This document shows, piece by piece, positions 17,074 through 44,616 of a stretch of DNA of 64,000 bases (positions are counted from its first letter, which is position 1; every line of letters begins with the position of its first letter). Both the position numbers and the translations under genes were made by a program. Below the pieces are notes generated by a model. That model was not told the origin of the DNA and made no database searches. It saw only the letters and a program-made list of their open reading frames with translations. The DNA is from Paratractidigestivibacter faecalis. GTDB taxonomy: Bacteria > Actinomycetota > Coriobacteriia > Coriobacteriales > Atopobiaceae. Location: NCBI RefSeq assembly GCF_003416765.1, contig NZ_QSNG01000001.1, positions 1,080,742 through 1,144,741 on the forward strand, written 5' to 3'.

Positions 17074-18204
17074 CTAGGCGCCAAAGCAGGGAAAGCCCTC
17101 GAAGACGGGCTTGCCGGAGTAGCGGCGGGGCAGCTCGGCGCCGTCGAGGACGCGGCGGGCGCCTGCGGCCATGGCCTCGAGCTCGAACTCGCCCGGATAG
17201 GCCGTGACCGGGGCTATCCAGCCGCAGCGCTCGACGATGTCGGCGACAAGGCCCTTGTTGTGAACCATGCCGCCTCCGAGCAGAATGCCGTCGACGCCGC
17301 CGCCCAATGCCGCGGCCATGGCGCCGATCTCCTTGCAGATCTGATAGACCATGGCGTCCCAAGCGCGACGGGCCGCCTCGTCGCCGGCCTCGGCGCGCCG
17401 GCTCACCTCGAGGGCGTCGGAGGTGCCCAGCAGGTCGACGAAGCCGCCGGTCTTCATGCAGAGGCGGCGCGTCTCGGCGACGCCGTGGCCGGCCTCCAGG
17501 TAGTCCAGGACCTCGGCCACGGGAAGGGCGCCCGCACGCGTGGGGGCCATCGGGCCCTCGCCGCCCACGATGTCGGCGCCGTCGACCATCTTGCCGTGGT
17601 CGTGGGCGCTGACGGAGATGCCGCCACCGATGTGGCAGACCACAAAGCGGCAGTCCTCGTAGGCACGGCCCATCGAGGCCGCGTGGCGGATGGCCGTCTC
17701 CTTGAGGTTGAGCGCATGAAGGTGCACGTGGCGGTACACGCCGCGCACGCCGGTCATGCGCGCCTCGTCGCACAGCTCGTCGGTGTCGGGCGGGTTCACC
17801 ACAAAGGCTGGGCGGCCGCACCTCGCCGCAAGGGCGTGCGCGATCTGCGGCCCCAGCTGGGCCGGGTGCTGCACGCCGTTTGCGCCGCGCGTGGAGTGGT
17901 CGAGAAGGACGTCGTCCACCTCGTAGGTGCCTCCCGGGAGCGGCAGCAGGCCGCCGCCGCGCCCCACGAAGGCGTCCACGCTGGCAAGGTCCACGCCGTT
18001 CTCCGCGAGCGCGGCCTCGATGAGGCCCAGGCGGTACGGCAGCTGGTCCGACACGCCGGCGAACTTGGCCAGCTCGGAGGCCTCGTGCGCGACGTTTACG
18101 GTGAAGACGGGCTTCTCGCCGTCAAAGAGGCCGACCTTGGTGGAGGTGGAGCCCGGGTTGATGACAAGGACGCGCCAGGCGCGGGGCTCGATGGTCTGCG
18201 CCAT
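17074..18204 (-). CDS. Butyrate kinase-like acyl kinase (module 1)
   Basis: 376 residues of the acetate/butyrate kinase superfamily, nearest to butyrate kinase by length and motifs. It converts an acyl phosphate plus ADP to acid plus ATP. Phosphate-binding NPGSTSTKVGLF is at residues 16-27; others are NGVQHPAQLGP, NPPDTDEL, CHIGGGISVSAHDHGKMVD and LGGGMVHNK. Last gene of thiolase-DUF35-ACP-phosphotransacylase-kinase, 2 bp after the transferase. The acyl group is unknown; butyrate is only the family default. A paralogue with the same neighbours is at 43492. Confidence 0.85.
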   Translation of the reverse strand: MAQTIEPRAWRVLVINPGSTSTKVGLFDGEKPVFTVNVAHEASELAKFAGVSDQLPYRLGLIEAALAENGVDLASVDAFVGRGGGLLPLPGGTYEVDDVLLDHSTRGANGVQHPAQLGPQIAHALAARCGRPAFVVNPPDTDELCDEARMTGVRGVYRHVHLHALNLKETAIRHAASMGRAYEDCRFVVCHIGGGISVSAHDHGKMVDGADIVGGEGPMAPTRAGALPVAEVLDYLEAGHGVAETRRLCMKTGGFVDLLGTSDALEVSRRAEAGDEAARRAWDAMVYQICKEIGAMAAALGGGVDGILLGGGMVHNKGLVADIVERCGWIAPVTAYPGEFELEAMAAGARRVLDGAELPRRYSGKPVFEGFPCFGA

Positions 18205-18206
18205 GG

Positions 18207-19217
18207 CTACTCCCCCTCCGTCAGCGCCTGGGCGCGCACGCAGCTCATGACCACGTTGCCCACGATCTCGGAGACTGGGGCGCTGCGGCTGCAGTCGCAG
18301 ACGATCTTCTTGAAGCCCTGGAGCATGGGGCCGTAGGCGTCGGCGCCCGTGAGGTTCTGGATGATCTTGACGCCGATGTTTCCGACGTTGATGTCGGGCC
18401 AGATGAGGAGGTTGGCACGGCCGGCCACCTCAGACTCGCGGCGGACCTTCTTGGCGGCAACGTCCGGGCGGACGGCGGCGTCAAACTGGAACTCGCCGTC
18501 GATCTTGAGGTCGGGCCTGCGCTCGTTGGCAATGTTGCGCGCGGCGCGGACCTTGTCGACAAGGGCATTGTCCATGGAGCCGTCCGTGGAGTGCGAGAGC
18601 AGGGCGCAGCGCACGTCCCAGCCGGTGAGCGCGGCCACCGTGTCGGAGGAGGCGCAGGCGATGGAGGCCAGCTCCTCGGGCGTGGGGTCAACGCAGACGG
18701 CGGAGTCGCCAAAGCCGATGAGGCCGTTCTCGCCGCCGTCCCAGCCGGGGACCTGGGCGATGCCGCAGGAGCTGATGGTGTCCACGCCGTCGGCCAGGCC
18801 CACGATGATCTGGCCGGCCAGGATGATGTCGCCGGTGGCGTTGGCGATGCCCGCGAACATCACGTCAACGTCGCCGAGCACCTGCATGATGAGGGCGCGC
18901 TCCAGGGGGCGCGTCATGCGCTTGGCCGCGCCCTTGGGCTTGTAGCGGCAGTCGGGGTGCGCCAGGTAGCGCTCGCAGCAGGCGGCGTTGGCGGCCTCGT
19001 CGGTCACGTCGACGACCTCGATGCCGTCGAGCGAGATGCCGCGCTCGCCGGCCAGGCGGGCCAGCTCGGCGCCGTCGCCCACCAGCACGCACTGGGCCAG
19101 GCCCTCGTCGGCCAGCTCGCGCACGGCGCGCATCATGGTCTCGTTGTCGCCCTCGGGGAAGGCGACGCGCATGGGGCGCGCGGCGGCGCGCTCGCGCAGG
19201 GTCTGCATCAGATCCAT
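18207..19217 (-). CDS. Phosphate acyltransferase, PTA/PTB family (module 1)
   Basis: 336 residues. The family moves an acyl group between a thiol carrier and phosphate. Landmarks: RVAFPEGDNETMMRAV near the N terminus, ANATGDIILAGQIIVGLADGVD, LLSHSTDGSMDN, LKIDGEFQFDAAVRP and RANLLIWPDINVGNIGVKI, the phosphate/CoA-site region of Pta and Ptb. It follows the ACP gene by 3 bp, and the kinase follows it by 2 bp. The position next to an ACP suggests the carrier may be acyl-ACP rather than CoA, but the sequence cannot prove that. Similar to the 42443 gene in the second module. Confidence 0.85.
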   Translation of the reverse strand: MDLMQTLRERAAARPMRVAFPEGDNETMMRAVRELADEGLAQCVLVGDGAELARLAGERGISLDGIEVVDVTDEAANAACCERYLAHPDCRYKPKGAAKRMTRPLERALIMQVLGDVDVMFAGIANATGDIILAGQIIVGLADGVDTISSCGIAQVPGWDGGENGLIGFGDSAVCVDPTPEELASIACASSDTVAALTGWDVRCALLSHSTDGSMDNALVDKVRAARNIANERRPDLKIDGEFQFDAAVRPDVAAKKVRRESEVAGRANLLIWPDINVGNIGVKIIQNLTGADAYGPMLQGFKKIVCDCSRSAPVSEIVGNVVMSCVRAQALTEGE

Positions 19218-19220
19218 GCG

Positions 19221-19454
19221 CTACTCCATCTCTTCCTCGACGCGGGCCACGAGCTCGGCGATGTTCTTCATGACCATGACCTCGCGGACGGGCACCTCGG
19301 CATCGAGCTCGTTCTCGATCATGGAGGTGAGGGCGATCATCTTCATGGAGCCCTTGCCTAGCTCGTCGAAGGTGGTCTCGGGCGTGATCTGGCCCTCGTA
19401 CTTGTAGGCGTTCTTGGCGAACTCGGCAACCTGCTCGAAGACTTCCTGGTTCAT
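19221..19454 (-). CDS. Free-standing acyl carrier protein-like (module 1)
   Basis: 77 residues, the size of an ACP. It has the four-helix pattern with TTFDELGKGSMKMIALTSMI, where Ser36 falls at the phosphopantetheine position of the usual DSL motif (here GSM), followed by the acidic helix and VREVMVMKNIAELV. The altered DSL context suggests a specialised, not fatty-acid-synthesis, ACP. It lies in an operon with a thiolase-like enzyme, DUF35 protein, phosphotransacylase and kinase. GGAA precedes the ATG; a palindrome (19493-19523) is just upstream. Confidence 0.75.
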   Translation of the reverse strand: MNQEVFEQVAEFAKNAYKYEGQITPETTFDELGKGSMKMIALTSMIENELDAEVPVREVMVMKNIAELVARVEEEME

Positions 19455-19544: not shown

Positions 19545-19964
19545 CTAGTCCAGCTCAAAGGTGAGCATCTTGTAGCCGGGGCGGTCGATCACCTTTGCGT
19601 GGACGCCGACCTTCTCGCCGGCCATGAGGGCCGCGCGGATGGCCGGGGCCTTCTTCTTGGTGATGCCGTAGATGACGTAGGTGTACTGGGCGCCCTCGTC
19701 AATCTCCACGGCGCCGTAGGCGTACTTGCCGTTCTCCTTGAGGTAGGGCTTGTCGTTTTGCGGGCCGGGCAGAGTGAAGTCGATGAGGCGGCCGTGGCCG
19801 GAGACCTCGCACCACTCGGTCTCGTGGTAGCCGCAGGCGTTGCAGGCCAGGTGGGGCGGAAACTCCACGGCACCGCACTCCTTGCACTTGCGGGCGTAGA
19901 ACTTGCCCTGCTCCAGGCCCTCGTAGAACTTCTTGACGATGGGCTCCATCATTTCGAGTTTCAT
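19545..19964 (-). CDS. DUF35 OB-fold / zinc-ribbon acyl-transfer partner
   Basis: 139 residues. The rubredoxin-like zinc ribbon is CKECG...CNACG (residues about 27-43), followed by an OB fold (GHGRLIDFTLP onward). DUF35 proteins form complexes with thiolase-like enzymes, as in archaeal acetyl-CoA C-acetyltransferase/HMG-CoA synthase and the PhlB subunit of 2,4-diacetylphloroglucinol acyltransferase, where they channel the acyl chain. It directly follows the thiolase-like gene by 19 bp. AGAGGAG precedes ATG 19964; the longer frame to 20453 overlaps the thiolase gene and is rejected. Confidence 0.88.
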   Translation of the reverse strand: MKLEMMEPIVKKFYEGLEQGKFYARKCKECGAVEFPPHLACNACGYHETEWCEVSGHGRLIDFTLPGPQNDKPYLKENGKYAYGAVEIDEGAQYTYVIYGITKKKAPAIRAALMAGEKVGVHAKVIDRPGYKMLTFELD

Positions 19965-19983: not shown

Positions 19984-21270
19984 CTAGCGGACGGCGCGCA
20001 GGATCTGGCAGCGGACGTTCTGGGAACCGCCGAAGCCGCGGACGAAGGTGGTGTCGGGACGCTTGACCATCTGGGTGGCGCCGGCCTCGCCGCGCATCTG
20101 CTTGACGGCCTCGTAGATGTCGGCGATGCCCGAGGCGCCGTGGGCGTGGCCGAAGTTGCAGCGGCCGCCGTGCGGGTTGATGGGCTTGTCACCGTCGTAG
20201 GCGGTGCGGCCGTCGATGGCGTAGCGCCAGGCCTCGCCGCGCGGGATGTAGCCGCACTCCTCCGCGGAGACAATCTCCGACGCGAGGAAGAAGTCGTTGC
20301 ACATGAAGAGGTCGACCTCGTCGGGAGAGACGCCGGTGAGTTCGTAGACCTGCTGGGCGGCGACCTTCGTGGCCCAGTGCTCGTTGTGGACCAGGCCCGC
20401 CTCAACGGCGGAGGCGCCGGTGCCCAGGACCTCGATGGGGGTGTGGGGCACACCCATGGCCAGGGCCTTCTCGGTGGGCATGACCACCAGGGCCGCCGCG
20501 CCGTCGCACTTCTTCTCGAAGCCGGTCACGCGCAGGTACTGGGTGACCTTGGGGTTGTACATGGACTTGAGGTACTCGTCGGCGGTCGCAAAGCCGTTGG
20601 CGGTCGCGTCCTCCTCGACCGTGGTCTCGTACCAGGCCAGCGGGTTGGCCACGGCGCCGCGGCGAAGGCTCTTGGTGAGGCCGTTTAGGGCGTCGTCGAT
20701 CTTCTCGGCGTCGATGTCGTACTGCATGGAGTACTCGTTGATCCAGTTGTCGAAGGACACGCCGAAGGCGCCGTCAAGCGGGCGTCCGTAGGCGCGGTCG
20801 TAGATCTTGTCCAGGGACGGGATCATGACGGAGAGCGGGAAGTCCTGGCGGATGTGGGACGGCTGGTGCTCCACGGGAAGCGTGGAAGCCAGGTCGCAGG
20901 CGCCGGAGAGGACGACGTCGTAGGTGCCGGAGGCCACGGCCATGACGGCCTGCTCGAGCGCCACGTAGCCGGTGCAGCAGGCCTCGGAGTGGTGGACGGA
21001 GCCCTTGGCGCGCATGCCGATCCAGTCGGCCACCTGCATGTTGGGGGTGATGCAGTCTCCCACCAGGTAGGGGTTGGCGCTGCCGTGGTAGAAGAAGTCC
21101 ACGTCGCGCGGCTCCAGGCCGGCGTCGGCGATGGCCTCCAGCGCGGCGTAGCCAAAGGCCTCGCCCTCGCCGATGCCCTGGGTCTCGGGGTGGGTCTCGA
21201 AGTCCTTGAACGGCGTGCAGCCCACGCCGACGATGGACACGCTTCGAGCGTTCTTGCCAAGCTTGACCAT
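19984..21270 (-). CDS. Thiolase-family (SCP2-like) acyltransferase
   Basis: 428 residues, single-domain-pair thiolase fold of the non-classical type that partners DUF35 proteins. The nucleophilic Cys is in HSEACCTGYVAL (Cys98), and the C-terminal active site is NPHGGRCNFGHAHGASGIADI-like with the GHAHGASG His; the second classical Cys-x-Gly loop is altered (SQNVRCQIL). Such enzymes make or break C-C bonds of beta-keto acyl groups, sometimes without CoA (PhlC). It is the first gene of module 1. The reaction may be a retro-Claisen cleavage feeding the ACP, but the substrate is unknown. Confidence 0.85.
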   Translation of the reverse strand: MVKLGKNARSVSIVGVGCTPFKDFETHPETQGIGEGEAFGYAALEAIADAGLEPRDVDFFYHGSANPYLVGDCITPNMQVADWIGMRAKGSVHHSEACCTGYVALEQAVMAVASGTYDVVLSGACDLASTLPVEHQPSHIRQDFPLSVMIPSLDKIYDRAYGRPLDGAFGVSFDNWINEYSMQYDIDAEKIDDALNGLTKSLRRGAVANPLAWYETTVEEDATANGFATADEYLKSMYNPKVTQYLRVTGFEKKCDGAAALVVMPTEKALAMGVPHTPIEVLGTGASAVEAGLVHNEHWATKVAAQQVYELTGVSPDEVDLFMCNDFFLASEIVSAEECGYIPRGEAWRYAIDGRTAYDGDKPINPHGGRCNFGHAHGASGIADIYEAVKQMRGEAGATQMVKRPDTTFVRGFGGSQNVRCQILRAVR

Positions 21271-21650: not shown

Positions 21651-22271
21651 TCACTTCTCGCCGAAGGGGGAGGTGGGGCTCGTGCGGGCGCGGGACTCGT
21701 CGAGGAAGAAGGGGGCGTAGAAGAGGCGGTTGAGGACGCCGGCCACCTTCTCGGGCGGCGTGTCGGGGCGCTCCTCCAGCCAGTACTGGATGACGTTGTG
21801 GTGCCCCGCCAGAACGAAGGCCAGGTAGAAGTCTCGGTAGTCGGCGGACCCTGGCACGTCGGCCAGGCGGTCGCGGAAGTGGTCGTGCATGAGGACGGTG
21901 GCCTTGTGGATGAACTGCGGGTCCCCGTGGGGGCCGTTCAGCGCCACGATCTTGTCGCGGCGCTCCTGGAGGAGCTCCATGCGGCGGATCATGGTGGGCG
22001 TGGGGTCGAGCTCAGCCAGGCCGAAGCGCGCCTTCAGGGCGTACCCGTTGATGTCGTGCATGTTGGCCAGAAGGTCCATCTCGAAGCCCTTGACCACCTG
22101 GTCAACGCTGTCGAAGTGCCGGTAGAACGTGGAGCGCGACACCCCCGCCCCATGGCAGACGTCCGCCACGCGGATGTCCGGTATGTCGGTGGTCCTCATG
22201 AGCGAGAAGACTGCGTCCTCTATGCGCTCGTCAGCTGAGTCGCGCTTCTTGTCGTATCCCCAGGCCGTCAT
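21651..22271 (-). CDS. TetR-family transcriptional regulator
   Basis: 206 residues. The N-terminal helix-turn-helix is IEDAVFSLMRTTDIPDIRVADVCHGAGVSRSTFYRHF in two blocks (residues 19-54), with a variable helical C-terminal ligand domain ending close to the REP repeat. It is divergent from the PucR gene and just upstream of module 1, so it probably controls one or both. ATG 22271 with AAGGA upstream is used; GTG 22277 is also possible. The ligand is unknown. Confidence 0.88.
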   Translation of the reverse strand: MTAWGYDKKRDSADERIEDAVFSLMRTTDIPDIRVADVCHGAGVSRSTFYRHFDSVDQVVKGFEMDLLANMHDINGYALKARFGLAELDPTPTMIRRMELLQERRDKIVALNGPHGDPQFIHKATVLMHDHFRDRLADVPGSADYRDFYLAFVLAGHHNVIQYWLEERPDTPPEKVAGVLNRLFYAPFFLDESRARTSPTSPFGEK

Positions 22272-22302
22272 GACCACACTTCCTTTCAGATTCGGCTACC
22301 AT

Positions 22303-22317
22303 GTCCCGCGACGGGAC
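22303..22317. promoter_or_regulatory. Palindromic operator candidate between TetR and PucR genes
   Basis: GTCCCG-CGA-CGGGAC, a perfect 6-bp inverted repeat with 3-bp spacer in the 89-bp divergent gap. Size and position suit a TetR or PucR dimer site. Confidence 0.45.
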
Positions 22318-22360
22318 CGCTATCCACATCCGTCACCAACGCCCAAGCGAGGGGACTCCC

Positions 22361-23674
22361 ATGAACACCACCGGCACAGACGTGCAGGAATCAAACGAGC
22401 GCCTGCTCAAGGCCCTGTTTTCCAACCGAGGCCTGACTCACCTCGTGGAGGTGGGCGCCGCCGAGCTTGGCAACCCGGTACTGGTAGTTGACCCAACCTA
22501 CCACTACGCCGCCCGCGCCGGCATAGAGCTCGACGACGCCGACGACTCCGCCTTCGCCCGCTTCGTCCGCACCGAGTCCGCCGACGAGGTCATCGCCGAC
22601 GAGGGCATCCGCTACATCAAGGAGACGGGCGTGGACGAGGAGCTCGCCCGCGCGCACGGCGCGGTGCTGCGGCACAACCCCCTCTACGACCTCGACACCC
22701 TGACGCAGGACGTCGTGGCCGAGGGCATCTGCCTGGGCCGCGTTATGGCCCTGGCAAAGAACCACCCCTTCGGCGAGGCCGACCGCGCCGTCTTCGACCG
22801 GCTCGTGGCCCTGGTGGCCCAGGAGCTCCAGAAGGGCGGGTTCCTCTCTTCCAAGGACTCGCAGGCAGGGCCCTACTTCCTGGCCCGCCTGCTCGACGAC
22901 GAGCAGCCCAACCCCATGCACACCGCGCGCCGCATGAAGCTGGTGGGCTTCTCTCCCCTCTCCACGCTCTTCGTGGTGACCCTGCGCCGCCGCGAGGGAG
23001 ACATGGACGGCAGCTGCGCCCAGCGCGTGCGCGCCCACCTCTCGGGCCTCCTCGCGCACAGCCTCTCCACCATCTACGACAACGAGCTCGTCTGCCTGGT
23101 CTCTCGCACGGACGAGCCGGTGCTTCCCGCACGCGACGAGGAGGCCCTCGTGCGCGCCGCCGCGAGCAACGGGCTCTTGGTGGGCATCAGCAACGCGTTC
23201 TCGGAGGTCACCGACGTGCGCCCCCACCTGGAGCAGGCGAGAAGCGCCATCCGCTACGGGTCCACCTACACCAAGATCCTGGACGACACCGGCGTCTACC
23301 GCTACTGCGAGTACACCTACATGGAGATGCTGGACATCTGCAACGACCACGTGAACCTGATGAACTACTGCCACCCGGCCATCTGGGCCCTGTGGGAGTA
23401 CGACCAGGCGCACGGCACCGAGCTCGTGGAGACGCTCTTTGCCTACATGCAGAACGGCTGCAACACCGCCCGCACCTCCGCCCTGCTCAGCCTGCACAAG
23501 AACACGCTGCTCTACCGCCTGGGCAGGATCCGCGAGGTCACCGGCAACGACCTCGCCTCCGGGGAGGACCTGTTCCTCTTCCACCTCTCCATCCGCGTCC
23601 TGCTCTACCTGGGCATCTTCGAGACCCGCACCAAGCCGCGCTCGAGCGCGGACCTGCACCTGCCGGCGGAGTAG
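22361..23674 (+). CDS. PucR-family transcriptional regulator (module 1)
   Basis: 437 residues. The C-terminal PucR-type helix-turn-helix is LVETLFAYMQNGCNTARTSALLSLHKNTLLYRLGRIREVTG in two blocks (about 360-400). The N-terminal and middle parts show a GAF/GGDEF-related sensor layout as in CdaR/PucR activators (VVDPTYHYAARAG; LVGISNAFSEVTDVRPHLEQARSAI). Such proteins usually activate a nearby catabolic operon when the substrate is present. ATG 22361 has AGGGGAC upstream and is preferred to 22301. A hairpin with paired 9-mer words follows the stop. Confidence 0.88.
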   Translation: MNTTGTDVQESNERLLKALFSNRGLTHLVEVGAAELGNPVLVVDPTYHYAARAGIELDDADDSAFARFVRTESADEVIADEGIRYIKETGVDEELARAHGAVLRHNPLYDLDTLTQDVVAEGICLGRVMALAKNHPFGEADRAVFDRLVALVAQELQKGGFLSSKDSQAGPYFLARLLDDEQPNPMHTARRMKLVGFSPLSTLFVVTLRRREGDMDGSCAQRVRAHLSGLLAHSLSTIYDNELVCLVSRTDEPVLPARDEEALVRAAASNGLLVGISNAFSEVTDVRPHLEQARSAIRYGSTYTKILDDTGVYRYCEYTYMEMLDICNDHVNLMNYCHPAIWALWEYDQAHGTELVETLFAYMQNGCNTARTSALLSLHKNTLLYRLGRIREVTGNDLASGEDLFLFHLSIRVLLYLGIFETRTKPRSSADLHLPAE

Positions 23675-23779: not shown

Positions 23780-24772
23780 CTAGTCGCGCTTGATCTCGAG
23801 CGTGGGGAACTCCATCTTGGCGTACTTGTCAATGAGGGGCTTGACCTCGCCCATGTGCGCGAAGAACTCGTCGCGCGTCTTGTTAATCTCGTTCAGGTGC
23901 TCAGCGCGGGCGCGGTCGTCGTTGCGGTCGCGGATGAGGCCGTTCTCAGCGATCCTGAGCTTGGGGCGGCCGGTCTTCTCGTCGGTCACGAGGTCGCCGC
24001 CGGCGCCGCAGACGGCGCACTCCCACGGGAACTCGACGCCGTCCCAGTGCTTGTCGCCGGGGTAGACCAGGGAGCTGTGGCAGTTGGGGCAGACGCCGTC
24101 GTCGGCGTCGCCCAGCCAGCAGCGCTCCTCGACGGGGGTCTGGATGGCCTTGACGATGTTCTCGCCCATCCTGCGGGCGCGGGCGAGCTGGCCGCCCCAC
24201 TCATCGCCCTCGCCCCACACGAAGCAGTTGCCCGGGCGGCCGTCGCGCTGGGCCATGTAGCGGTCAACGACCTGCATGGACATGGTGAACATGGTGGCCT
24301 GCAGGCTCTCCAGCGCAAGGGATTGCCAGTCGTGCATGGAGCCGCCGACGGAGATGAGGCCGGCCACCGTGTGCGGGTTCTCCTTGACGTCGCCGATGGC
24401 GAGCCTGAAGGAGAGCTCGTAGGCGAGGAAGCGCTGGGCCAGGCGGGTATAGACGGAGCTGGGCGTGAGGTCGTAGGTGGGGACCGAGATGATCACGCCC
24501 TGGCAGGTCTGGATCTCGTTGATGATGGCGTCGACGTCGTCCTTGTTCTTGAGGACGCAGCCGTGGTACTCCTTCTGGAGGCCGGCGGCCATCTTGCCCA
24601 TCTGCATGGTGCAGCCCTCGCAGCCGGTGCAGGGCAGGATGTTGTAGTCAAAGAGGTTGATGAGCTCGACCTCTCCGCCCGCCTCCTGGACCGCGCAGAG
24701 GGCCTCCTTGGCGAGCGCCTCGCCATTTCCGCCGTGCCTGCCGGCGCAGATTGCCATAACCTTGAACGACAT
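23780..24772 (-). CDS. Iron-sulfur flavoprotein / FMN reductase with zinc ribbon (module 1)
   Basis: 330 residues. N-terminal flavodoxin-like NADPH-dependent FMN reductase fold starting MAICAGRHGGNGEALAKEAL, with a compact Cys motif LPCTGCEGCTMQ and a later CVLKNKDD, as in iron-sulfur flavoproteins. The extra C-terminal domain has CPNCHSS...WECAVCG (a zinc-ribbon or rubredoxin-like site, residues about 230-260). It likely passes single electrons or reduces a small organic substrate in the cytosol. Paralogue of the 37233 gene, which holds the same place beside module 2. ATG 24772 has GAGAGGGG 5 nt upstream. Confidence 0.82.
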   Translation of the reverse strand: MSFKVMAICAGRHGGNGEALAKEALCAVQEAGGEVELINLFDYNILPCTGCEGCTMQMGKMAAGLQKEYHGCVLKNKDDVDAIINEIQTCQGVIISVPTYDLTPSSVYTRLAQRFLAYELSFRLAIGDVKENPHTVAGLISVGGSMHDWQSLALESLQATMFTMSMQVVDRYMAQRDGRPGNCFVWGEGDEWGGQLARARRMGENIVKAIQTPVEERCWLGDADDGVCPNCHSSLVYPGDKHWDGVEFPWECAVCGAGGDLVTDEKTGRPKLRIAENGLIRDRNDDRARAEHLNEINKTRDEFFAHMGEVKPLIDKYAKMEFPTLEIKRD

Positions 24773-24913
24773 GTTTGCCCCTCTCCAGAGCATCCGGGCG
24801 CGGGCCGACGCCCGCGCATTCTGGAAAGAAGGTTACGGCGCCCGGAGGGGACGTTCACCGTCTGTGCAAACGAGGGATGCGCGATGAGGGGCCGCGCGCT
24901 CGTGCGAACATAC

Positions 24914-24966: not shown

Positions 24967-25073
24967 GCCGTACAAGAGTATCCTCGCGGCGACGCACGCG
25001 TTCATTGGTCGCGCGACCAGAATCCGCCGTGCGTCGGGCGGTCGTCCTTGGCATCCGCCACAGCCGGCCAAAT

Positions 25074-32091: not shown

Positions 32092-32119
32092 CAGACAGGC
32101 TGAAAACGCAGGTTACTTG
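32092..32119 (+). repeat. Right 28-bp direct repeat bounding the island
   Basis: CAGACAGGCTGAAAACGCAG then GTTACTTG. Partner of 25074-25101, 26/28 identical, 7,018 bp away. It covers the final codon and TAA stop of the NuoF-like gene. Confidence 0.75.
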
Positions 32120-35336: not shown

Positions 35337-35372
35337 GCGTTTCCCCTCGAAACGTATTCCAACGTGCCAAAA

Positions 35373-35406
35373 GAGGCGCCCGGGAAACCCCTCCCCCGGG
35401 CGCCTC
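35373..35406 (-). terminator. Terminator after the FAD flavoprotein gene
   Basis: GAGGCGCCCGGG (35373-35384) pairs with CCCGGGCGCCTC (35395-35406); minus strand continues TTTTGG. A second stem GGCGAGAAG-cc-CTTCTCGCC (35426-35445) precedes it. Confidence 0.8.
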
Positions 35407-35469
35407 AGAAGGGCAATGGTCACGCGGCGAGAAGCCCTTCTCGCCTGCGCTCGTCAAGCCAGGCTAGGC

Positions 35470-36975: not shown

Positions 36976-37162
36976 GCGAATCCTCCTTGTTAGATGCGCT
37001 TCTCGCAACCAAACTTCAATCTGAAGCTACGAGTACACCATCGCGCTTTGGAGCCGCCCGTTCCATGTGCGCACGCACCGACCTCGCCCGCGCGCGCCCG
37101 CGCCCTTTGTGCAATCAGACATGGAGCAGCCGAGAAGCCCGTGAGCACCCGGAGGCGATGGG

Positions 37163-37232: not shown

Positions 37233-38231
37233 CTAGCGCTCGGGAGTGGTGGCGGAGATGGCCTCCTTGTAGAAGTTGACGCGGTCCTTGTAGGCCTGGG
37301 TCTTCTTCATCTCGGCGAGCTTGCCCTCGTTCTCCTGGATGTCCTTGCCGTGGATCTCCTTGCCGGAGATGATGTCGTGGGCCTTGTGCAGGTCCTCGTC
37401 CCTGTAGGTGACGTGGGCACCGGTCTCGTCGACGGACAGCTCGCCCTCGAGGCCGCAGACGCAGCAGATGGCGCGGTTCTCGCCGGGGACGATGTAGAAG
37501 TCGTTGCAGTTGCAGTGGGGGCAGATGCCCTTCTTGCCCTGGTACTCAACGCCCTCGTAGGGCTGCTTGCCGGAGGCGCAGTTCTCCTGGATCTGCTTGG
37601 CGGCGGCGGCCAGGTTCTGGCCGATCTGGGTGGCACGGTCGATGAGGGCGTCGTCCATCAGGGCCGTCTTGGACCAGGGCACCCACTCGTTGTCGATGAC
37701 CTTCCAGCTGGGGGTCATGGCCTGGAGCTGGTGCTCGGACTGGACATGCGTGCCCCAGTCGGAGCCGCCGATGCCGATGTAGGAGACGGCCTTGGGGCTC
37801 ATGATGGCCGGGTCGGGGACCACGACGCCCTGGGCGGCGGGACCACCCTCGGCCAGGCGGCCCTTGGCGATCTGCGTGGAGATGAAGTTGTTGCCGGTGT
37901 CCATGCGGGGTCCGAAGCGATCCATGATGGTGTGGAACAGGCCGGAGGCGCCGGTCTCGAAGATCGGGTCGACCATGACGACGCCGTCGGCACGGAACAT
38001 CTCGAAGGCCAGCCAGTCAAAGTCGTCCTTGTGGATGCACATGTTCTTGGTGCCGCTCATGAGCATCTTGACGCAGGTGATGCAGCCGGTGCAGTGCTTG
38101 ATGTCGAGGTCCATCGCGCGGATGAACTCGACCTCGCAGCCAGCCTCCTTGGCGGCCAGAAGCACAGCCTTGCAGATGGTGTCGTTGTTGCCGTTCTTGG
38201 TGCCAAACGAGACGCCCACGATCTTGGTCAT
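37233..38231 (-). CDS. Iron-sulfur flavoprotein / FMN reductase with zinc ribbon (module 2)
   Basis: 332 residues. Flavodoxin-like fold from IVGVSFGTKNGNNDTICKAV, then the Cys motif KHCTGCITCVKML with a fourth Cys in KNMCIHKDD (compact cluster of iron-sulfur flavoproteins). A C-terminal zinc-ribbon pair CPHCNCN...CCVCG lies near residues 255-275. It is a paralogue of the 23780 protein with the same added domain, a rare combination. ATG 38231 with AAGGGG; the frame to 38429 upstream is ignored. It is next to the second PucR gene. Confidence 0.82.
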   Translation of the reverse strand: MTKIVGVSFGTKNGNNDTICKAVLLAAKEAGCEVEFIRAMDLDIKHCTGCITCVKMLMSGTKNMCIHKDDFDWLAFEMFRADGVVMVDPIFETGASGLFHTIMDRFGPRMDTGNNFISTQIAKGRLAEGGPAAQGVVVPDPAIMSPKAVSYIGIGGSDWGTHVQSEHQLQAMTPSWKVIDNEWVPWSKTALMDDALIDRATQIGQNLAAAAKQIQENCASGKQPYEGVEYQGKKGICPHCNCNDFYIVPGENRAICCVCGLEGELSVDETGAHVTYRDEDLHKAHDIISGKEIHGKDIQENEGKLAEMKKTQAYKDRVNFYKEAISATTPER

Positions 38232-38419
38232 GGCGACCCCTTTCCTCTCCGTGCACAAACGGTGTGCGGCGCACCTCCCTAAGGCGGGCCGCCTTTTCAC
38301 GGAAAAGCGTAGGGCCAAAGCCGTTATGCAAACGCATAGAGAACCGGGGCAAGCCGAGACGGGCCGTTGTGCTGGATGACAACGGTCGCCGCCGAGCGCC
38401 GGCTGGGGCCGGCGGGCAA

Positions 38420-38455: not shown

Positions 38456-40009
38456 TCAGCCGAGGCCCTCCAGGATGGACGTGGAGAAGGACGTGGCCAG
38501 GCGGTCGTCGCCGTCCTTGAGGTCGATGAAGAAGAGCTCACGGACCTTGTTCACGCGGTAGAAGTACGTGTTGCGATGGACGTTCAGGGCGCCGGCGGCC
38601 TCGGCGGGGCTGCCGGGGAAGCGCACGGACATGACGGCCGTCTTGAGGTAGTCGGTGCCGTGGTCGCGGTCGTAGTCGGCCATGGCGACCACGCGCTTGT
38701 CGAGCATGCGCTCGAGGCGGTCGGCGCCCTCCGGGGCGCAGGCCAGGACGGCAAAGCGGTTCTCCCAGAAGTAGACCACCCGGCCCGCCACGCGGGAGGC
38801 GCAGGCCTGCGCGAGGTCGGTGGCCTGCGCGAGCCTGCCGGGCGCGAGCGCCAGGTCACGCAGGGGCTCGGCCACGAAGGCGCGCAGGTCGTTGTTCTCG
38901 AGCGCGCTCGTGAGCTGGGTGTTTCCCGAGAGCCTGCGCGCGGCGCGAGCGTAGTCGTCGTAGCCCACGCACTCGTTCCTGCCGATGGGGGCAAGCACCA
39001 CCAGACAGTTCTCGCGGGCGCACCACAGGCAGTCGCGGAAGGCGCGCGCCACGATGCCGCCCACCCGGGCGTAGTAGTCCTTGCCGGCGCCGCGCTGGCC
39101 CATGACGGCCATCATGACGTAGGAGACGTCCAGCGGAAGGCCCGTCAGGGCGAGCTGCGCGCGCATGGTCGGCTCGTTGGCAAAGGCGCCGGCCACGAGG
39201 TCCTCCAGGACCGACGAGCCAAAGCCCACGCGCTCCCCCGCCGCGCCCAGGCGGTCGATCATGATGCCGGCGAGCTGCCCCGCGTAGTCGACGAGCTCCA
39301 GGTCAAAGCCGGTGATGGGGCGGTCGGACTCCATGACGTCGTAGCGGCCCATCTCGAGGTGGTGGTAGTAGATGATCGAGGTCACCCAGTGCCTGCCAAA
39401 GCGGGTGGTGCCCGAGAGCAGCGAGTGGCGGGCGTGCCGGACGGCCTCGATCATGCCGTCCGCCTCGAGCTCGGAATTCACGCCCTCGGACACGTAGCCG
39501 CAGGAGAGGACCTCCTGCACGTCGGGGGCGTCGGCGGGAAACTCGCCGGCGGTGGCGAGAAGGCGCATGTCGGCGTTGACGATGATGACAGGGTTGCCCA
39601 GCACCTCGGAGGACCTGCGCGCGAACTGCGGCAGGTCGTAGGACGAGAGGAACGCCTCGAACATCTTCTCGCGCCTGACCTCGAGGATGGCCGCGCCGGC
39701 GGGAAGGTCCAGGAAGGTGGCGCGGAAGTCCCCGTAGGAGTAGGGGTGGCTCACCACCACGGCGTCCGCCGAGCACGAGAAGCCCTCGGGAAGGGCGCCC
39801 TGGGTGTGGACGAGAAGGACCTGCCCCTCGCCGGCCTTGACGTGCTCCTCCAGGTAGCTCTGGAGGCTGCACAGGCGCAGGAGCTTTGCCTCGGGCGGGA
39901 CGTTCTTCTCGTACTCCGGCACGACGATGACGTCCTCGTCCAGGAGCTCGTCACGGCCCACGCAAAGCGGTGCGCACTGCAGCTCGTTAAGGACGGTCCT
40001 CAGCTTCAT
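38456..40009 (-). CDS. PucR-family transcriptional regulator (module 2)
   Basis: 517 residues. The C-terminal PucR helix-turn-helix is SPAEAAGALNVHRNTYFYRVNKVREL (about 470-495; written in part). The middle part has a GGDEF-like/CdaR layout, and the N terminus has a sensor segment LRTVLNELQCAPLCVGRDELLDEDV. A much longer open frame continues upstream to 43336, but only this part has protein-like sequence; ATG 40009 follows GGGGGG by 6 nt. It is divergent from the CocE-type operon and probably activates it. Confidence 0.88.
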   Translation of the reverse strand: MKLRTVLNELQCAPLCVGRDELLDEDVIVVPEYEKNVPPEAKLLRLCSLQSYLEEHVKAGEGQVLLVHTQGALPEGFSCSADAVVVSHPYSYGDFRATFLDLPAGAAILEVRREKMFEAFLSSYDLPQFARRSSEVLGNPVIIVNADMRLLATAGEFPADAPDVQEVLSCGYVSEGVNSELEADGMIEAVRHARHSLLSGTTRFGRHWVTSIIYYHHLEMGRYDVMESDRPITGFDLELVDYAGQLAGIMIDRLGAAGERVGFGSSVLEDLVAGAFANEPTMRAQLALTGLPLDVSYVMMAVMGQRGAGKDYYARVGGIVARAFRDCLWCARENCLVVLAPIGRNECVGYDDYARAARRLSGNTQLTSALENNDLRAFVAEPLRDLALAPGRLAQATDLAQACASRVAGRVVYFWENRFAVLACAPEGADRLERMLDKRVVAMADYDRDHGTDYLKTAVMSVRFPGSPAEAAGALNVHRNTYFYRVNKVRELFFIDLKDGDDRLATSFSTSILEGLG

Positions 40010-40056: not shown

Positions 40057-40234
40057 CCTCCTTTTGGCAAGGGGAGGCGGGCCGGCCATTGTACGGCATA
40101 CCACGACCACGCGGGCGGACGCGGGAAAGTTTGTCATCCAGTCCAATGACCTTCTCGCCCCAAAAACGGACACTCATCCATGACCAGGACGCGGCCCCGA
40201 GGGGGTGCGTCAAGAACATCCGAGAGGAGAGCGC

Positions 40235-42040
40235 ATGGCTGAGAAGCAGCCGGGCATCACCAAGAAGATGACCTTCGGCGGCGAGGAGTTCGAGGTCCCC
40301 TTCGCCAAGGGCAACCCGGGCAAGTCCCGCGAGGAGCTGGACGAGATCAAGCGCAAGCTGCAGGAGGACCCCGACGCCGGCGACGGCGAGATGGTGGCCA
40401 CCATGGGCTTCTGCGCCAAGTACAACCCCCACACCTACATGACCGAGATTCCGGGCGTCATGTGCGAGCGCGACGTGGCCTGCGTCCTTCGTGACGGCAC
40501 CACCATCTACGCCGACATCTACCGCCCCGCCAACACGACGGAGAAGGTGCCCGTCATCTGCGTCTTTGCCCCCTTCGGCAAGAACCCCTCCGAGGGCATG
40601 GACTCCTGGCAGCTCATGGGCGTGCCGCCCAAGACGGTCTCCCAGTACGCCAAGTTCGAGGCTCCCGACCCCGGCTACTGGTGCCACTACGGCTACGCCG
40701 TGGCCAACGTGGACCCGCGCGGCGTCGGCAACTCCGAGGGCGACGTCTACCTCTGGGGCTCCCAGGACGCCCAGGACGGCTATGACTTCATCGAGTGGGT
40801 GACGGCCCAGGAGTGGTGCAACGGCCGCGCCACCATGATCGGCAACTCCGGCGTCTGCATGGCCCACTGGCGCATCGCCGCCACCAGGCCTCCCCACCTC
40901 GCCTGCCTCGCCGCCTGGGAGGGCCAGGGCGACCTCTACCGCGAGTCCTACTTCTGCGGCGGCATCCCCAACCCCGACTACGAGACCCACATCATCCAGG
41001 CCCTCGCCGTCAACAACTACATCGAGGACACCCCGGCGATGGTGGCCAAGTACCCGCTCATGAACGCGTACTACAAGGACAAGATCGTCGACTGGAACAA
41101 GATCCGCATCCCCACGTACGTCACCGCCGGCTGGGTCCACCACCACCTGCGCGGCGCCTTCGAGGGCTTCCGCCGCATCCGCACCCCCAAGAAGTGGATG
41201 CGCGCCCACCGCGACTTCGAGTGGCCCGACAGCTACAAGCCCGAGAACCTCGACGACATCCGCCGCTTCTTCGACCGCTACTGCAAGGAGATCCACAACG
41301 GCTGGGAGATGACCCCGCGCGTCCGCCTGGACGTCATGGACGGCTATGACTACGACTACGCCAGCCGTCGCGCCGAGGAGACCTTCCCGCTCAAGCGCAC
41401 CGAGTACAAGAAGCTGTACCTGGACGCCGAGAACCACGCGGCCGGCTTCGAGGAGTACGCCAACGAGTCCGAGGTCACCTACGACCCCAAGACCGAGACC
41501 ACGACGTTCACCTACCAGTTCACCGAGGACACCGAGATCACCGGCTACATGAAGCTGCACCTCAACGTCGAGTGCCGCGGCTACGACAACATGGACCTCT
41601 TCCCCTGGGTCATCAAGCTGGACAAGGACGGCAACTACGTGCCCATCCGCGTCATGGGCGCCCCCTTCCGCGGCGCGTGGGGGTTCCTGCGCTGCAGCCA
41701 CCGCGACCTCGACCCCAAGTACGCCAGCGACTTCCAGCCCGTGCACTCCCACGAGAAGGAGGAGCGCATGCAGCCGGGCGAGATCGTCCCGGTGGACGTG
41801 GAGATGTACCCGCACTCCCGCTTCTGGCACAAGGGCGAGAAGTTCCAGGTCGTCATTGCCGGTCGCTTCATCAAGACCGAGTGGTTCCACGACAACGACA
41901 TGAACCACGCCACCGACAACGGCGACGGCATCCACGTCATCCACACCGGCGGCGAGCACCAGTCCTACCTGCAGATTCCCGTCGTTCCCCCCAAGTACCA
42001 GGTGGGCGACTACATCTGGCACGGCGACGAGAACAAGTAG
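40235..42040 (+). CDS. CocE/NonD-family alpha/beta hydrolase (module 2)
   Basis: 601 residues, X-Pro dipeptidyl-peptidase (S15)/CocE superfamily. The nucleophile loop is MIGNSGVCMAHWRIAA (Ser in GNSG), after NVDPRGVGNSEGD. PPHLACLAAWEGQGDLYRES and CGGIPNPDY are family hallmarks. The C-terminal jelly-roll domain (about 380-600) has ITGYMKLHLNVECRGYDNMD and ends with a His in IHTGGEHQSYL. The family cleaves esters or amides and works through an acyl-serine. No signal peptide, so cytosolic. GAGAGGAG precedes ATG 40235. It heads ACP-phosphotransacylase-kinase-MFS. Confidence 0.88.
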   Translation: MAEKQPGITKKMTFGGEEFEVPFAKGNPGKSREELDEIKRKLQEDPDAGDGEMVATMGFCAKYNPHTYMTEIPGVMCERDVACVLRDGTTIYADIYRPANTTEKVPVICVFAPFGKNPSEGMDSWQLMGVPPKTVSQYAKFEAPDPGYWCHYGYAVANVDPRGVGNSEGDVYLWGSQDAQDGYDFIEWVTAQEWCNGRATMIGNSGVCMAHWRIAATRPPHLACLAAWEGQGDLYRESYFCGGIPNPDYETHIIQALAVNNYIEDTPAMVAKYPLMNAYYKDKIVDWNKIRIPTYVTAGWVHHHLRGAFEGFRRIRTPKKWMRAHRDFEWPDSYKPENLDDIRRFFDRYCKEIHNGWEMTPRVRLDVMDGYDYDYASRRAEETFPLKRTEYKKLYLDAENHAAGFEEYANESEVTYDPKTETTTFTYQFTEDTEITGYMKLHLNVECRGYDNMDLFPWVIKLDKDGNYVPIRVMGAPFRGAWGFLRCSHRDLDPKYASDFQPVHSHEKEERMQPGEIVPVDVEMYPHSRFWHKGEKFQVVIAGRFIKTEWFHDNDMNHATDNGDGIHVIHTGGEHQSYLQIPVVPPKYQVGDYIWHGDENK

Positions 42041-42065
42041 CCCGCCGCGCACGACCAAGAGAAGT

Positions 42066-42090
42066 TGACAAAGGGACTGTCCCTTTGTCA
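42066..42090 (+). repeat. Palindrome between hydrolase and ACP genes
   Basis: TGACAAAGGGAC-T-GTCCCTTTGTCA, perfect. It occupies the same position (before the ACP gene) as the palindrome at 19493-19523 in module 1. Confidence 0.8.
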
Positions 42091-42118
42091 CCAAGACCAA
42101 ACAAGAAGGAGCATTGAC

Positions 42119-42370
42119 ATGAACGATTTCCAGGAAGAGGTCGTCGAGATCCTCAAGAACAAGGCCGCCGACATCTTTGGCGTCGACCCCTCCACCCTCT
42201 CCGAGGCCACCAGCTTCGTTGACGACCTGCACTGCAAGTCCGTCAACATCGTGCAGTTTGCCTCTGCCCTCGAGGACGAGTACGAGGTCGAGGTCCCCTA
42301 CATGCAGCTGAACAAGTGCGCCACCTTCGCCGACGCCGCCAAGTTCGTGGACGACGCCCTCTCCATGTAG
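42119..42370 (+). CDS. Free-standing acyl carrier protein-like (module 2)
   Basis: 83 residues with the ACP four-helix pattern. The phosphopantetheine site is DDLHCKSVNIVQF, Ser41, with KSV in place of DSL; then EDEYEVEVPYMQLNKCATFADAAKFV. It is not close to the module 1 ACP in sequence but has the same neighbours. AAGGAG precedes the ATG. The non-canonical site context argues against general fatty-acid synthesis. Holo-ACP synthase would have to modify it. Confidence 0.75.
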   Translation: MNDFQEEVVEILKNKAADIFGVDPSTLSEATSFVDDLHCKSVNIVQFASALEDEYEVEVPYMQLNKCATFADAAKFVDDALSM

Positions 42371-42442
42371 TTGCCCCAGGGCCCGCAACCAGGCACTTCT
42401 CGCCTGACTGCGGGCTCTCTTTCTATAGAAAGGACCCAACAG

Positions 42443-43438
42443 ATGAACCTCATCCAGAAGCTCACCGAGGAGGCCAAGGCCGCCCCCGCCCGCCGCGTGG
42501 CCATGCCCGAGTGCGAGGCCGTCAAGACCTTGCAGGCCGCCCGCCGCGTGGCCGACGACGGCATCGGCACGCCGGTGCTGGTCTCCCCCGCCGACGTCAT
42601 CTCCGCCACCGCCGAGGAGGCCGGCGTCTCCCTGGAGGGCATGGAGGTCGTGGACACCACCGACGCCGACGCCCTCGAGGAGCGCGCCGCCCGCTTCATG
42701 GCCGCGGGCCAGCGCATGCTGAGCGACAAGGGCATCCGCCGCAAGATGAAGATGCCCATGTGGTACGCCATGGTCATGGAGGAGCTCGGCGAGGTCGACT
42801 GCACCTTCTGCGGCCACACCAACACCACCGGCGACGTGCTCATGTGCGCCCAGATGACCATCGGCCTGGCCGAGGGCGTGGACGTGCCCTCCATCCTGGC
42901 CCTGGTTGACACCCCGGGCTTCGAGGGCCCCGAGGGCAGCGTCATCTGCTTCACCGACTGCGGCCTCAACCCCGAACCCAATGCCTCCGAGCTGGCCTCC
43001 ATTGCCATCAGCGCCGCCGACGGCGTGCGCTCCATCATGGGCTGGGAGCCGCGCGTGGGGTTCCTCTCCTTCTCCACCGACGGCTCCGGCGCCGGACAGA
43101 GCGTCGATCGCGTGGACGAGGCCATCAAGCTCGTGCACGAGAGGCGCCCCGAGCTTGCCGCCGACGGCGAGTTCCAGCTCGACGCCGCCATCGACCCTGC
43201 CGTGGCCGCCAAGAAGGTCGGCCGCGAGTCCGACGTCGCCGGCCGCGCCAACGTGCTGGTCTTCCCCGACCTCAACGCCGCCAACATCGCCGTGAAGCTC
43301 ATCCAGCGCTTTGCCAAGGGCGCGGCCTACGGCCACACGCTCAACGGCTTCAAGCGCCCCGTGGCCGACTCCAGCCGCGGCGCAACCGTCGAGGAGATCG
43401 TCGGCGACATCGCGATGCTCGTCCTCTCCGCCCGCTAG
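42443..43438 (+). CDS. Phosphate acyltransferase, PTA/PTB family (module 2)
   Basis: 331 residues. Landmarks: RRVAMPECEAVKTLQAARRV, GHTNTTGDVLMCAQMTIGLAEGVD, FLSFSTDGSGAG, LAADGEFQLDAAIDP and RANVLVFPDLNAANIAVKLIQ, which align with the same places in the 18207 protein. It would move an acyl group from a thiol carrier (CoA or the adjacent ACP) to phosphate. Third in its operon; GAAAGG precedes ATG 42443. Kinase follows by 53 bp. Confidence 0.85.
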   Translation: MNLIQKLTEEAKAAPARRVAMPECEAVKTLQAARRVADDGIGTPVLVSPADVISATAEEAGVSLEGMEVVDTTDADALEERAARFMAAGQRMLSDKGIRRKMKMPMWYAMVMEELGEVDCTFCGHTNTTGDVLMCAQMTIGLAEGVDVPSILALVDTPGFEGPEGSVICFTDCGLNPEPNASELASIAISAADGVRSIMGWEPRVGFLSFSTDGSGAGQSVDRVDEAIKLVHERRPELAADGEFQLDAAIDPAVAAKKVGRESDVAGRANVLVFPDLNAANIAVKLIQRFAKGAAYGHTLNGFKRPVADSSRGATVEEIVGDIAMLVLSAR

Positions 43439-43491
43439 CGCTTCTCGCCCAGATGCCGCGCGGCATCACGCACTCCATCAGAAAGGAAACC

Positions 43492-44616
43492 ATGGGATAC
43501 AAGGTCCTCACGCTCTCCCCCGGCTCCACCTCCACCAAGGTGGCCGTCTTCGACGGCACCGAGGCGCTCTTCCGCCTGAACGTCACCCACCCCGCAGACG
43601 AGCTCGCCCGCTTTGACTCCGCCGCGGACCAGTTTGACTACCGCCGTCAGACCATCCTCGACGCCCTTGCCGAGCAGGGCATCAGGCTCGAGGACATCGA
43701 CGCCTTCAGCGGCTACTGCGGCGCCATGGGCCCCACCGTGGGCGGCATCTTTGCCATCGACGACACCGTCTGCGAGCACGTCATGAACGCCGGCGTCAAC
43801 CACCCCGCAATCCTGGGCGCCCCGCTGCTGCACGCCTTTGCCCAGGCCACCGGCAAGCCCGCCTACGCCGTAAACCAGCCCGACACCGACGAGCTCGCCG
43901 ACGTGGCGCGCATCACCGGCTGGCCCGGCGTCTACCGCAAGAGCCACGTCCACTGCCTCAACCAGAAGGAGTGCGCCATCCGCTGCGCCGCCGAGCTGGG
44001 CATGAGCTACAAGGAGGGCAACTTCATCGTGGCCCACGTGGGCGGTGGCCTCTCCGTGGCCTGCCACGAGCGCGGCCGCATGGTGGACACCAACGACGTC
44101 CTCGAGGGCGCCGGCCCCTTCGCGCCCAACCGCTCCGGCGACGTGCCGGCCAAGCCCGTCGTGAAGATGGCCTTCTCCGAGGGCGCCAGCAAGAAGCAGA
44201 TGGACGGCGTCGTGGGCAAGACCGGCGGCCTTCTGGGCCTGCTCGGCACCGATGACGCCCGCAGAATCGTAGAGCGCATCGAGAACGGCGACGAGTGGGC
44301 GGCCACCGTCTACGACGCCATGGCCTACCAGGTTGCCAAGTACGTGGCCGGCTTTGCCGCCGTCGTCCGCGGCAAGGTGGACGGCATCGTGCTGACCGGC
44401 GGTGTCTCCCACGACCCGCGCTTTGTCTCCTACGTGACCGAGCGCGTGGGCTGGATCGCCCCCGTCAAGGTCTACGCCGGCGACTTCGAGATGGACGCGC
44501 TCGCCGCTGGCGCCATCCGCGCCCTCGACGGCAAGGAGCAGGTCATGACCTACACGGGCGAGCCCAGCTGGAAGGGCTTCGCCTGCGAGGGCGCCCTGCC
44601 CGACGTGGAGGCGTAG
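43492..44616 (+). CDS. Butyrate kinase-like acyl kinase (module 2)
   Basis: 374 residues. SPGSTSTKVAVF (phosphate loop), NHPAILGAPLL, NQPDTDEL, AHVGGGLSVACHERGRMVD, LTGGVSHDP. In the 17074 paralogue the first motif is NPGSTSTK; here Ser replaces Asn. It would make ATP from an acyl phosphate. GAAAGG precedes ATG 43492. A strong hairpin with U-rich tail follows before the MFS gene. Confidence 0.85.
   Translation: MGYKVLTLSPGSTSTKVAVFDGTEALFRLNVTHPADELARFDSAADQFDYRRQTILDALAEQGIRLEDIDAFSGYCGAMGPTVGGIFAIDDTVCEHVMNAGVNHPAILGAPLLHAFAQATGKPAYAVNQPDTDELADVARITGWPGVYRKSHVHCLNQKECAIRCAAELGMSYKEGNFIVAHVGGGLSVACHERGRMVDTNDVLEGAGPFAPNRSGDVPAKPVVKMAFSEGASKKQMDGVVGKTGGLLGLLGTDDARRIVERIENGDEWAATVYDAMAYQVAKYVAGFAAVVRGKVDGIVLTGGVSHDPRFVSYVTERVGWIAPVKVYAGDFEMDALAAGAIRALDGKEQVMTYTGEPSWKGFACEGALPDVEA

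Follow-up and report, generated by a model that had tools for sequence, protein, structure and literature searches.

Relation to described systems

In the Pta-AckA and Ptb-Buk systems, a phosphotransacylase and an acyl kinase convert a thioester to the free acid with formation of ATP. Here, we describe a gene cluster with two such enzyme pairs in Paratractidigestivibacter faecalis (Actinomycetota; Atopobiaceae), located on a stretch of 64,000 nucleotides (contig NZ_QSNG01000001.1 of assembly GCF_003416765.1, positions 1,080,742 to 1,144,741) that we refer to as the window. Each pair is encoded together with a free-standing acyl carrier protein (ACP), as ACP1-Pta1-Buk1 in module 1 and ACP2-Pta2-Buk2 in module 2. 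In contrast to Pta-AckA and Ptb-Buk, the modules have a dedicated ACP, a Pta clade without the arginines that bind coenzyme A (CoA), and, in many loci, phosphopantetheinyl transferases (PPTases) of their own. Judging from comparative sequence analysis, we think it probable that this is a cluster for an ATP-yielding route of catabolism in which dedicated holo-ACPs take the place of CoA.

Some described enzymes carry out related chemistry. PlsX makes acyl phosphate from acyl-ACP and phosphate, for phospholipid synthesis with the ACP of fatty acid synthesis (FAS). We propose the same reaction for the module enzymes, which unlike PlsX belong to the PTA_PTB family (PF01515). In the glycine reductase complex, protein C, a KAS III/PlsX-like pair, converts an acyl group held on an enzyme cysteine to acetyl phosphate. 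By analogy only, this complex resembles the module in that phosphate releases a protein-held acyl group, which a kinase then uses; in contrast to the module, it has no ACP, Pta, or Buk. Among the annotated genes of the cluster, at which no dedicated test was aimed, no gene related to GrdC or GrdD was seen.

The PhlACB acetyltransferase and the benzoylsuccinyl-CoA thiolase BbsAB resemble module 1 in that a thiolase partnered by a DUF35 protein makes or breaks acyl C-C bonds. However, the module partner is an ACP, no KAS III-like PhlA was seen, and the sequence similarity is only distant. The cluster for anaerobic phloroglucinol degradation (PMC10470551) differs in using CoA, and neither ACP nor DUF35 is reported in the accessible part of its description. 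The gut flavone pathway, which consists of flavone reductase (FLR), CHI, EnoR/Fcr, and phloretin hydrolase (PMC7862272, PMC11170127), has an FLR-type reductase in common with the cluster. The likeness extends to dihydrochalcone C-C cleavage, the expected last step, and to a phloretin hydrolase-family gene in some homologous clusters. In contrast to that pathway, the P. faecalis genome has no match to PF18089 (phloretin/DAPG hydrolase), and cleavage would be tied to ACP and ATP, not to water. All of the enzyme families are known, and to our knowledge their combination with a dedicated ACP and an apparently ACP-adapted Pta clade is undescribed. A preliminary description of the locus knew of no pathway with these parts, and a search of open-access papers, with subscription papers outside its scope, likewise found no ACP-Pta-Buk pathway.

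Carrier proteins accompany the module enzymes

The preliminary description had proposed that the acyl group is carried on a dedicated ACP, passed to phosphate, and then used to make ATP. The proposal is consistent with every comparative test that we ran. What we add is a candidate substrate class, flavonoid or acyl-phenol catabolism, to which the neighboring genes point and which that description did not include. Both ACP-Pta-Buk triplets were recovered by Pfam and NCBIfam models, and both kinases score above the curated cut-off of TIGR02707 (butyrate kinase; 289.1 bits). The two Ptas are 45% identical to each other, and the two kinases are 47% identical. The front ends differ as claimed, with a thiolase and DUF35 protein in module 1 and a CocE-type hydrolase in module 2. 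On the minus strand, where module 1 runs from 21270 down to 17074, ACP1, Pta1, and Buk1 are separated by only 2 to 3 bases. The plus-strand run of CocE, ACP2, Pta2, Buk2, and a major facilitator superfamily (MFS) transporter spans 40205 to 46107.

The 2.1-Mb P. faecalis genome, which comes from a family of Olsenella relatives, contains only four ACP genes (PF00550). Two of these lie directly upstream of the two noncanonical Ptas, and the others encode proteins that resemble AcpP (with a DSF motif) and a DltC-like carrier. A third Pta, which is canonical, is located elsewhere. As a control, we inspected 20 canonical Pta regions and found an ACP in none. With two of four genome ACPs upstream of noncanonical Ptas, chance pairing is thus very unlikely.

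To place the modules in a broader context, we scanned GTDB genomes with a Pta1 profile, which returned 461 relatives; locus analyses cover the best 80 of these 461 (loci labeled L). The 80 loci include representatives of Atopobiaceae, Collinsella, Slackia, Lachnospiraceae (Catenibacillus scindens and Agathobacter ruminis), Oscillospiraceae, Erysipelotrichaceae, and one Anaerolineales metagenome-assembled genome (MAG), ruling out that the module is limited to one genome or family. The triplets, for which a genome search had been suggested, proved to be conserved across phyla. An ACP was found in 67 of the 80 loci and in 28 of the 29 loci from L129 to L157, nearly all of which lie outside Atopobiaceae, such that the ACP link recurs in Actinomycetota, Bacillota, and Chloroflexota. 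Two layouts repeat, namely thiolase-DUF35-ACP-Pta-Buk and CocE-ACP-(AcpS)-Pta-Buk. The operon of Collinsella aerofaciens is a minimal version of the first, accompanied by an MFS carrier. Many gut and rumen Atopobiaceae have the module genes, which are also found in Lachnospiraceae.

The serine that accepts phosphopantetheine is kept in all 88 distinct module ACPs, and the aspartate of the DSL motif is present in none of them. Instead of DSL, the serine of ACP1 lies within GKGSM; that of ACP2 lies within CKSV. Because the serine is retained and the aspartate lost in all 88, the module ACPs appear to be a distinct class of carrier. Those of the window score far below NCBIfam ACP cut-offs and fall outside the definition of FAS-type AcpP. 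AcpS- and Sfp-type PPTases are encoded in 22 of the 80 loci, with PF01648 above cut-off in each of the seven that were checked; the P. faecalis genome has two PPTases, both outside the window. Finally, five loci encode DUF35 as a fusion with one or two ACP domains (L133, L140, and L157 by Pfam, as well as L129 and L137). Taken together, the PPTases, the DUF35-ACP fusions, the invariant serine, and the canonical-Pta control lead us to regard the link between ACP and Pta/Buk as real. The fusion in L133 (12342-13331), from an Oscillospiraceae MAG, joins DUF35 to two ACP domains.

Module phosphotransacylases have lost CoA-binding arginines

We compared module and canonical Ptas at functional residues, using the numbering of Methanosarcina thermophila Pta. 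Arg28, Arg87, Arg133, and Arg287 are kept in 20 of 20 canonical Ptas. Among 86 module Ptas, Arg87 and Arg133 are never kept and Arg28 is replaced by K, T, D, or N; Asp307, Ser309, and Arg310 are retained in all 86. Pta1 lacks the four arginines and keeps Asp307, Ser309, and Arg310, and Pta2 has lost Arg87 and Arg133 and keeps Ser309 and Arg310. The same split was found within Bacillota genomes that hold both Pta types, with one sequence showing Arg87 in a loop of ambiguous alignment. The module Ptas group in a single clade (support, 100/100), except for that of L073 (575-1555), which lacks Arg87 and Arg133, has Arg28, Arg287, and Asp316, and lies outside the clade. A structural model of Pta1 (pLDDT 79, 12 sequences) has the Pta fold, with 6iox as the best match and 1qzt also matching; the model is of low confidence at residues 276 to 305 and was left out of our assessment of the binding site.

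In M. thermophila Pta, changes to Arg87 and Arg133 mainly alter Km, and changes to Ser309 and Arg310 alter kcat (PMC6461089). In the Pta domain of MaeB, an arginine and a lysine on the 3' loop contact the 3'-phosphate of CoA, another arginine contacts the pyrophosphate, and mutating the 3'-loop arginine abolishes acetyl-CoA binding (PMC7902834). Phosphopantetheine bound to ACP has neither the 3'-phosphate nor the adenine, and loss of the arginines therefore matches an ACP-specific enzyme. The loss of CoA contacts is suggestive of ACP use by the module Ptas and disfavors their being canonical CoA users. Overall, we consider it highly probable that acyl-ACP is the substrate of these enzymes.

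Both modules are parts of one cluster

The modules had been viewed as two parallel operons. Comparison with relatives overturned this view, since the modules there share a single cluster, ruling out two separate pathways. A module Pta is carried by 54 of 140 genomes in the family, and the two Pta types co-occur above expectation. Where both types are on one contig, they are 6 to 27 kb apart in 20 of 21 genomes of the family. In the window, the genes for FMN1 and the NuoF-like protein are 7.3 kb apart (24793 to 32113). Because this gap is only 0.3 to 0.9 kb in four relatives, part of the separation of the operons is attributable to an insertion. The insert (~24800-32110; ~7 kb) is partly low in G+C (0.54 over 28 to 32 kb) and contains an ABC ATPase (25847-26779), a LuxR-type protein (29894-31882), and several open reading frames (ORFs) without a Pfam match.

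Flavoproteins and front-end enzymes as leads to the substrate

Next to each operon are a PucR regulator (both PF13556) and a flavoprotein, as first described. The identity assigned to the flavoproteins had to be revised. Based on PDB matches to 7d38, they have the fold of FMN reductases and belong to the FLR family rather than being iron-sulfur flavoproteins, and their supposed extra zinc ribbon corresponds in the alignment to a segment that FLR has as well. Structure 7D38 is the FMN-binding flavone reductase FLR of Flavonifractor plautii (PMC7862272). It is the sole PDB match of FMN2 (E = 5e-97), which is 48.5% identical to FLR. Mutating G106, W149, H271, or I275 strongly reduces or abolishes FLR activity, and the tail is essential (PMC7862272); FMN2 keeps all four residues, plus T305 and P307 of the tail. 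FMN1 is 25% identical to FLR and keeps W149, H271, and I275, with G106 falling in a gap. The FLR of C. ljungdahlii is active at 29.7% identity (PMC7862272). FMN2 is a relative of FLR and a predicted FLR-type ene-reductase, with flavone reduction as its putative function.

FMN2 orthologs are encoded in 45 genomes of the family, and all but two of these (43 of 45) have a module Pta as well (Fisher P = 3e-23, which is not a true probability, given that the genomes are related). Outside Atopobiaceae, FLR-family proteins are present in six module loci (L141, L143, L147, L149, L150, and L152). FLR orthologs (44 to 49%) are encoded by C. scindens, A. ruminis, and one Oscillospiraceae MAG, all with the thiolase module. 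FLR homologs in Olsenella MAGs have been reported previously (PMC8398226).

A PF18089 gene was found in only 4 of the 45 family genomes with an FMN2 ortholog, and FLR and PF18089 were not associated across the family (P = 0.32). The link to phloretin hydrolase thus rests on individual clusters. The PF18089 gene lies between ACP and Pta in L130, and L132 has a near-identical ORF. In genome G103, PF18089 is beside CocE-ACP2 and downstream of FLR-PucR2, and the PF18089-CocE-ACP2 part of this arrangement is repeated in G089. In C. picagaria, FLR, Fcr, and CHI are present without phloretin hydrolase (PMC11170127). Our PF00724 search for an Fcr-like enzyme returned one OYE-type protein outside the window, which is not interpretable.

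FLR cannot take NAD(P)H directly, and its electron source was left open in the description of the enzyme (PMC7862272). In the window, FMN2 is encoded in one minus-strand gene run with the FAD, NuoG-like, and NuoF-like proteins, which we regard as candidates for the electron chain of FMN2. The top NCBIfam match of the FAD protein is vinyl phenol reductase, at a score under that family's cut-off.

The thiolase has the nucleophile cysteine in a CCTG motif (98) and also has a GHAHGASG motif (374). Its PDB relatives are DUF35-partnered thiolases, including BbsB and PhlC, and the combination of a nucleophile cysteine with an adjoining DUF35 protein is that of the PhlBC/BbsAB/ChsH2 group. Near kinship to PhlC itself was dropped, as 7yvy, 6esq, and 4yzo all outscore PhlC. 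The CocE-type hydrolase has its nucleophile motif, GNSGV, at 213.

Proposed pathway and alternatives

From the parts, their conservation, the fusions, the PPTase linkage, and the residue losses, all of which can be read from the genomes, we infer the reactions, their direction, and the substrate. The substrate would enter via the MFS carrier and be reduced or otherwise prepared by the FLR-type flavoproteins and the FAD ene-reductase, probably with electrons from the NuoG- and NuoF-like proteins. The thiolase and DUF35 protein (module 1) or the serine hydrolase CocE (module 2) would then cut the C-C bond beside a ketone, with the phosphopantetheine thiol of ACP1 or ACP2 taking the acyl group; for CocE, the reaction may instead be ester cleavage. 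Pta1 or Pta2 would convert acyl-ACP and phosphate to acyl phosphate, from which Buk1 or Buk2 would form ATP and the free acid. No CoA ligase would be needed, because cleavage leaves the acyl group directly on ACP. The minimal operon of C. aerofaciens has neither acyl-CoA ligase nor CoA transferase, which suggests that these are dispensable and would fit a substrate that is not preactivated. We consider the ATP-yielding direction likely. A phenolic or flavonoid substrate is an even call; the likeliest substrates would be flavonoid-derived acyl-phenols, such as dihydrochalcones, which would yield arylpropionate and ATP from a bond that phloretin hydrolase would waste. More tentatively, the cluster may represent a strategy spanning three phyla, in which C-C bonds of plant polyphenols are cleaved onto dedicated holo-ACPs and an ACP-specific Pta clade allows ATP to be made without CoA.

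If this is correct, carrier proteins would serve energy conservation and not synthesis alone, and ACP rather than CoA would be the defining partner of one Pta clade. The pathway would also point to a way in which anaerobes can obtain ATP from flavonoids that goes beyond hydrolysis by phloretin hydrolase, and it would supply candidate genes for the electron source of flavone reductase, which was left open in PMC7862272. Since the genes occur in gut and rumen Atopobiaceae and in Lachnospiraceae, cultivable strains allow a direct test of the prediction.

Several observations weigh against this pathway. No ACP was found in 13 of the 80 loci, which partly reflects contig ends or genes between ACP and Pta. 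Mutants of Porphyromonas gingivalis Pta equivalent to Arg87 and Arg133 retain moderate activity (PMC6461089). The alignment of the Arg87 loop is ambiguous, and in EutD, a CoA-dependent enzyme, the choice of aligner decides whether the position reads A or R. D316E was dropped as a diagnostic of module Ptas because it also occurs in canonical Ptas of Bacillota. In principle, the entire chain can run in either direction. We saw no gene for chalcone isomerase in the cluster, where no model search was aimed at this enzyme. C. scindens degrades flavonoids but encodes its own phloretin hydrolase (PMC11170127). Last, the module carrier Slackia equolifaciens has no FLR match, and C. aerofaciens has a weak partial one.

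In these two species, the module occurs in the absence of an FLR ortholog. It is therefore not tied to flavones, a flavonoid-specific module everywhere is ruled out, and we are less sure of the substrate than of the mechanism. It is quite possible that the ACP mechanism stands and that the substrate is another plant beta-diketone, an ester, or a cyclic 1,3-diketone, in which case the FLR-family enzymes would act on other activated alkenes. Such a reading contests only the substrate and is compatible with the ACP mechanism. The low identity of FMN1 to FLR favors it, as does a second FLR-family protein of F. plautii without apigenin activity (PMC8398226). Yet FMN2 retains the residues whose mutation kills FLR, FLR and the module strongly co-occur in the family, and FLR orthologs accompany the thiolase module in C. 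scindens, A. ruminis, and the Oscillospiraceae genome.

The chain could also run in reverse, with Buk and Pta spending ATP to load a free acid on ACP and the thiolase/DUF35 pair condensing it in biosynthesis or chain elongation. The kinase and phosphotransacylase are reversible, DUF35-partnered thiolases also perform Claisen-type chemistry, and operon PPTases are common in biosynthetic clusters. We nevertheless consider this direction unlikely: the MFS carrier, FLR-type reductases, and PF18089 C-C hydrolases give the setting a catabolic look, CocE-type hydrolases are not condensing enzymes, and the minimal operon is not accompanied by a ketoreductase, dehydratase, or product-release enzyme. 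An ordinary CoA pathway, with Pta and Buk acting on acyl-CoA and the ACP as bystander or regulator, is quite improbable even though CoA thioesters are the normal substrates of Pta/Ptb and Buk, the canonical Pta fold and catalytic residues are intact, and CoA is the normal thiolase cosubstrate, as it would leave unexplained the ACP-DUF35 fusions, coencoded PPTases, invariant ACP serine, recurrent ACP adjacency, and loss of CoA-binding arginines in all module Ptas.

Gene content of the window and minor observations

Table 1. Features of the cluster, with positions in the window
Feature	Position	Strand	Support or remark
Buk1, butyrate-kinase family acyl kinase	17074..18204	-	TIGR02707, 365.6 bits
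Pta1, module-clade phosphotransacylase	18207..19217	-	PF01515, 276 bits
ACP1, free-standing acyl carrier protein	19221..19454	-	PF00550, 36 bits
DUF35/ChsH2-type zinc-ribbon partner of thiolase	19545..19964	-	PF12172
Thiolase-superfamily enzyme, module 1 front end	19984..21270	-	Pfam Thiolase_C_1, 104 bits
TetR-family regulator, upstream of module 1	21651..22277	-	PF14278; same place in relatives
PucR1 regulator	22301..23674	+	PF13556
FMN1, divergent FLR-family flavoprotein	23780..24793	-	Sole PDB match 7d38, E = 1.7e-14
NuoF C-terminal-like Fe-S protein with ferredoxin domain	32113..33186	-	PF10589, Fer4
NuoG/GltD-like NAD(P)H-linked Fe-S flavoprotein	33204..35423	-	PF07992, PF13510, PF10588; candidate electron supply
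Fumarate-reductase-like FAD ene-reductase	35470..37008	-	PF00890, 172 bits
FMN2, predicted FLR-type ene-reductase	37233..38318	-	7d38, E = 5.3e-97; start probably 38231
PucR2 regulator	38456..40009	-	PF13556
CocE/NonD-type alpha/beta hydrolase, module 2 front end	40205..42040	+	PF02129, PF08530; 3ib3, E = 6e-94
ACP2	42119..42370	+	PF00550
Pta2, module-clade phosphotransacylase	42443..43438	+	PF01515, 281 bits
Buk2, butyrate-kinase family acyl kinase	43453..44616	+	TIGR02707, 371.3 bits
MFS transporter	44815..46107	+	PF07690, 108 bits
Metallo-beta-lactamase-fold hydrolase	46409..47281	-	PF00753; recurs in 20/80 related loci

The MFS transporter weakly matches the conjugated bile salt and L-lactate MFS families. 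In G103 (L188:2893-7118), an Abhydrolase_3 protein stands in for CocE upstream of Pta-Buk, with a PF03547 carrier instead of the MFS transporter, which suggests that acyl donors are interchangeable. Second module-type Ptas were found in L210 (A. ruminis, with an ACP nearby) and L211 (an Oscillospiraceae genome). In L154, from a relative of C. scindens, the thiolase-ACP-Pta operon has on its downstream side a PocR-like sensor and a corrinoid-protein-like ORF (16096-18347), which were assigned by visual inspection of sequence starts and recall O-demethylase systems. Small hydrophobic ORFs resembling membrane proteins, which in the window are at 14493-14891 (no Pfam match) and 47421-47930 (no NCBIfam match), are repeatedly found near both modules in relatives. 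L149 encodes a similar small protein with a match to DUF1097.

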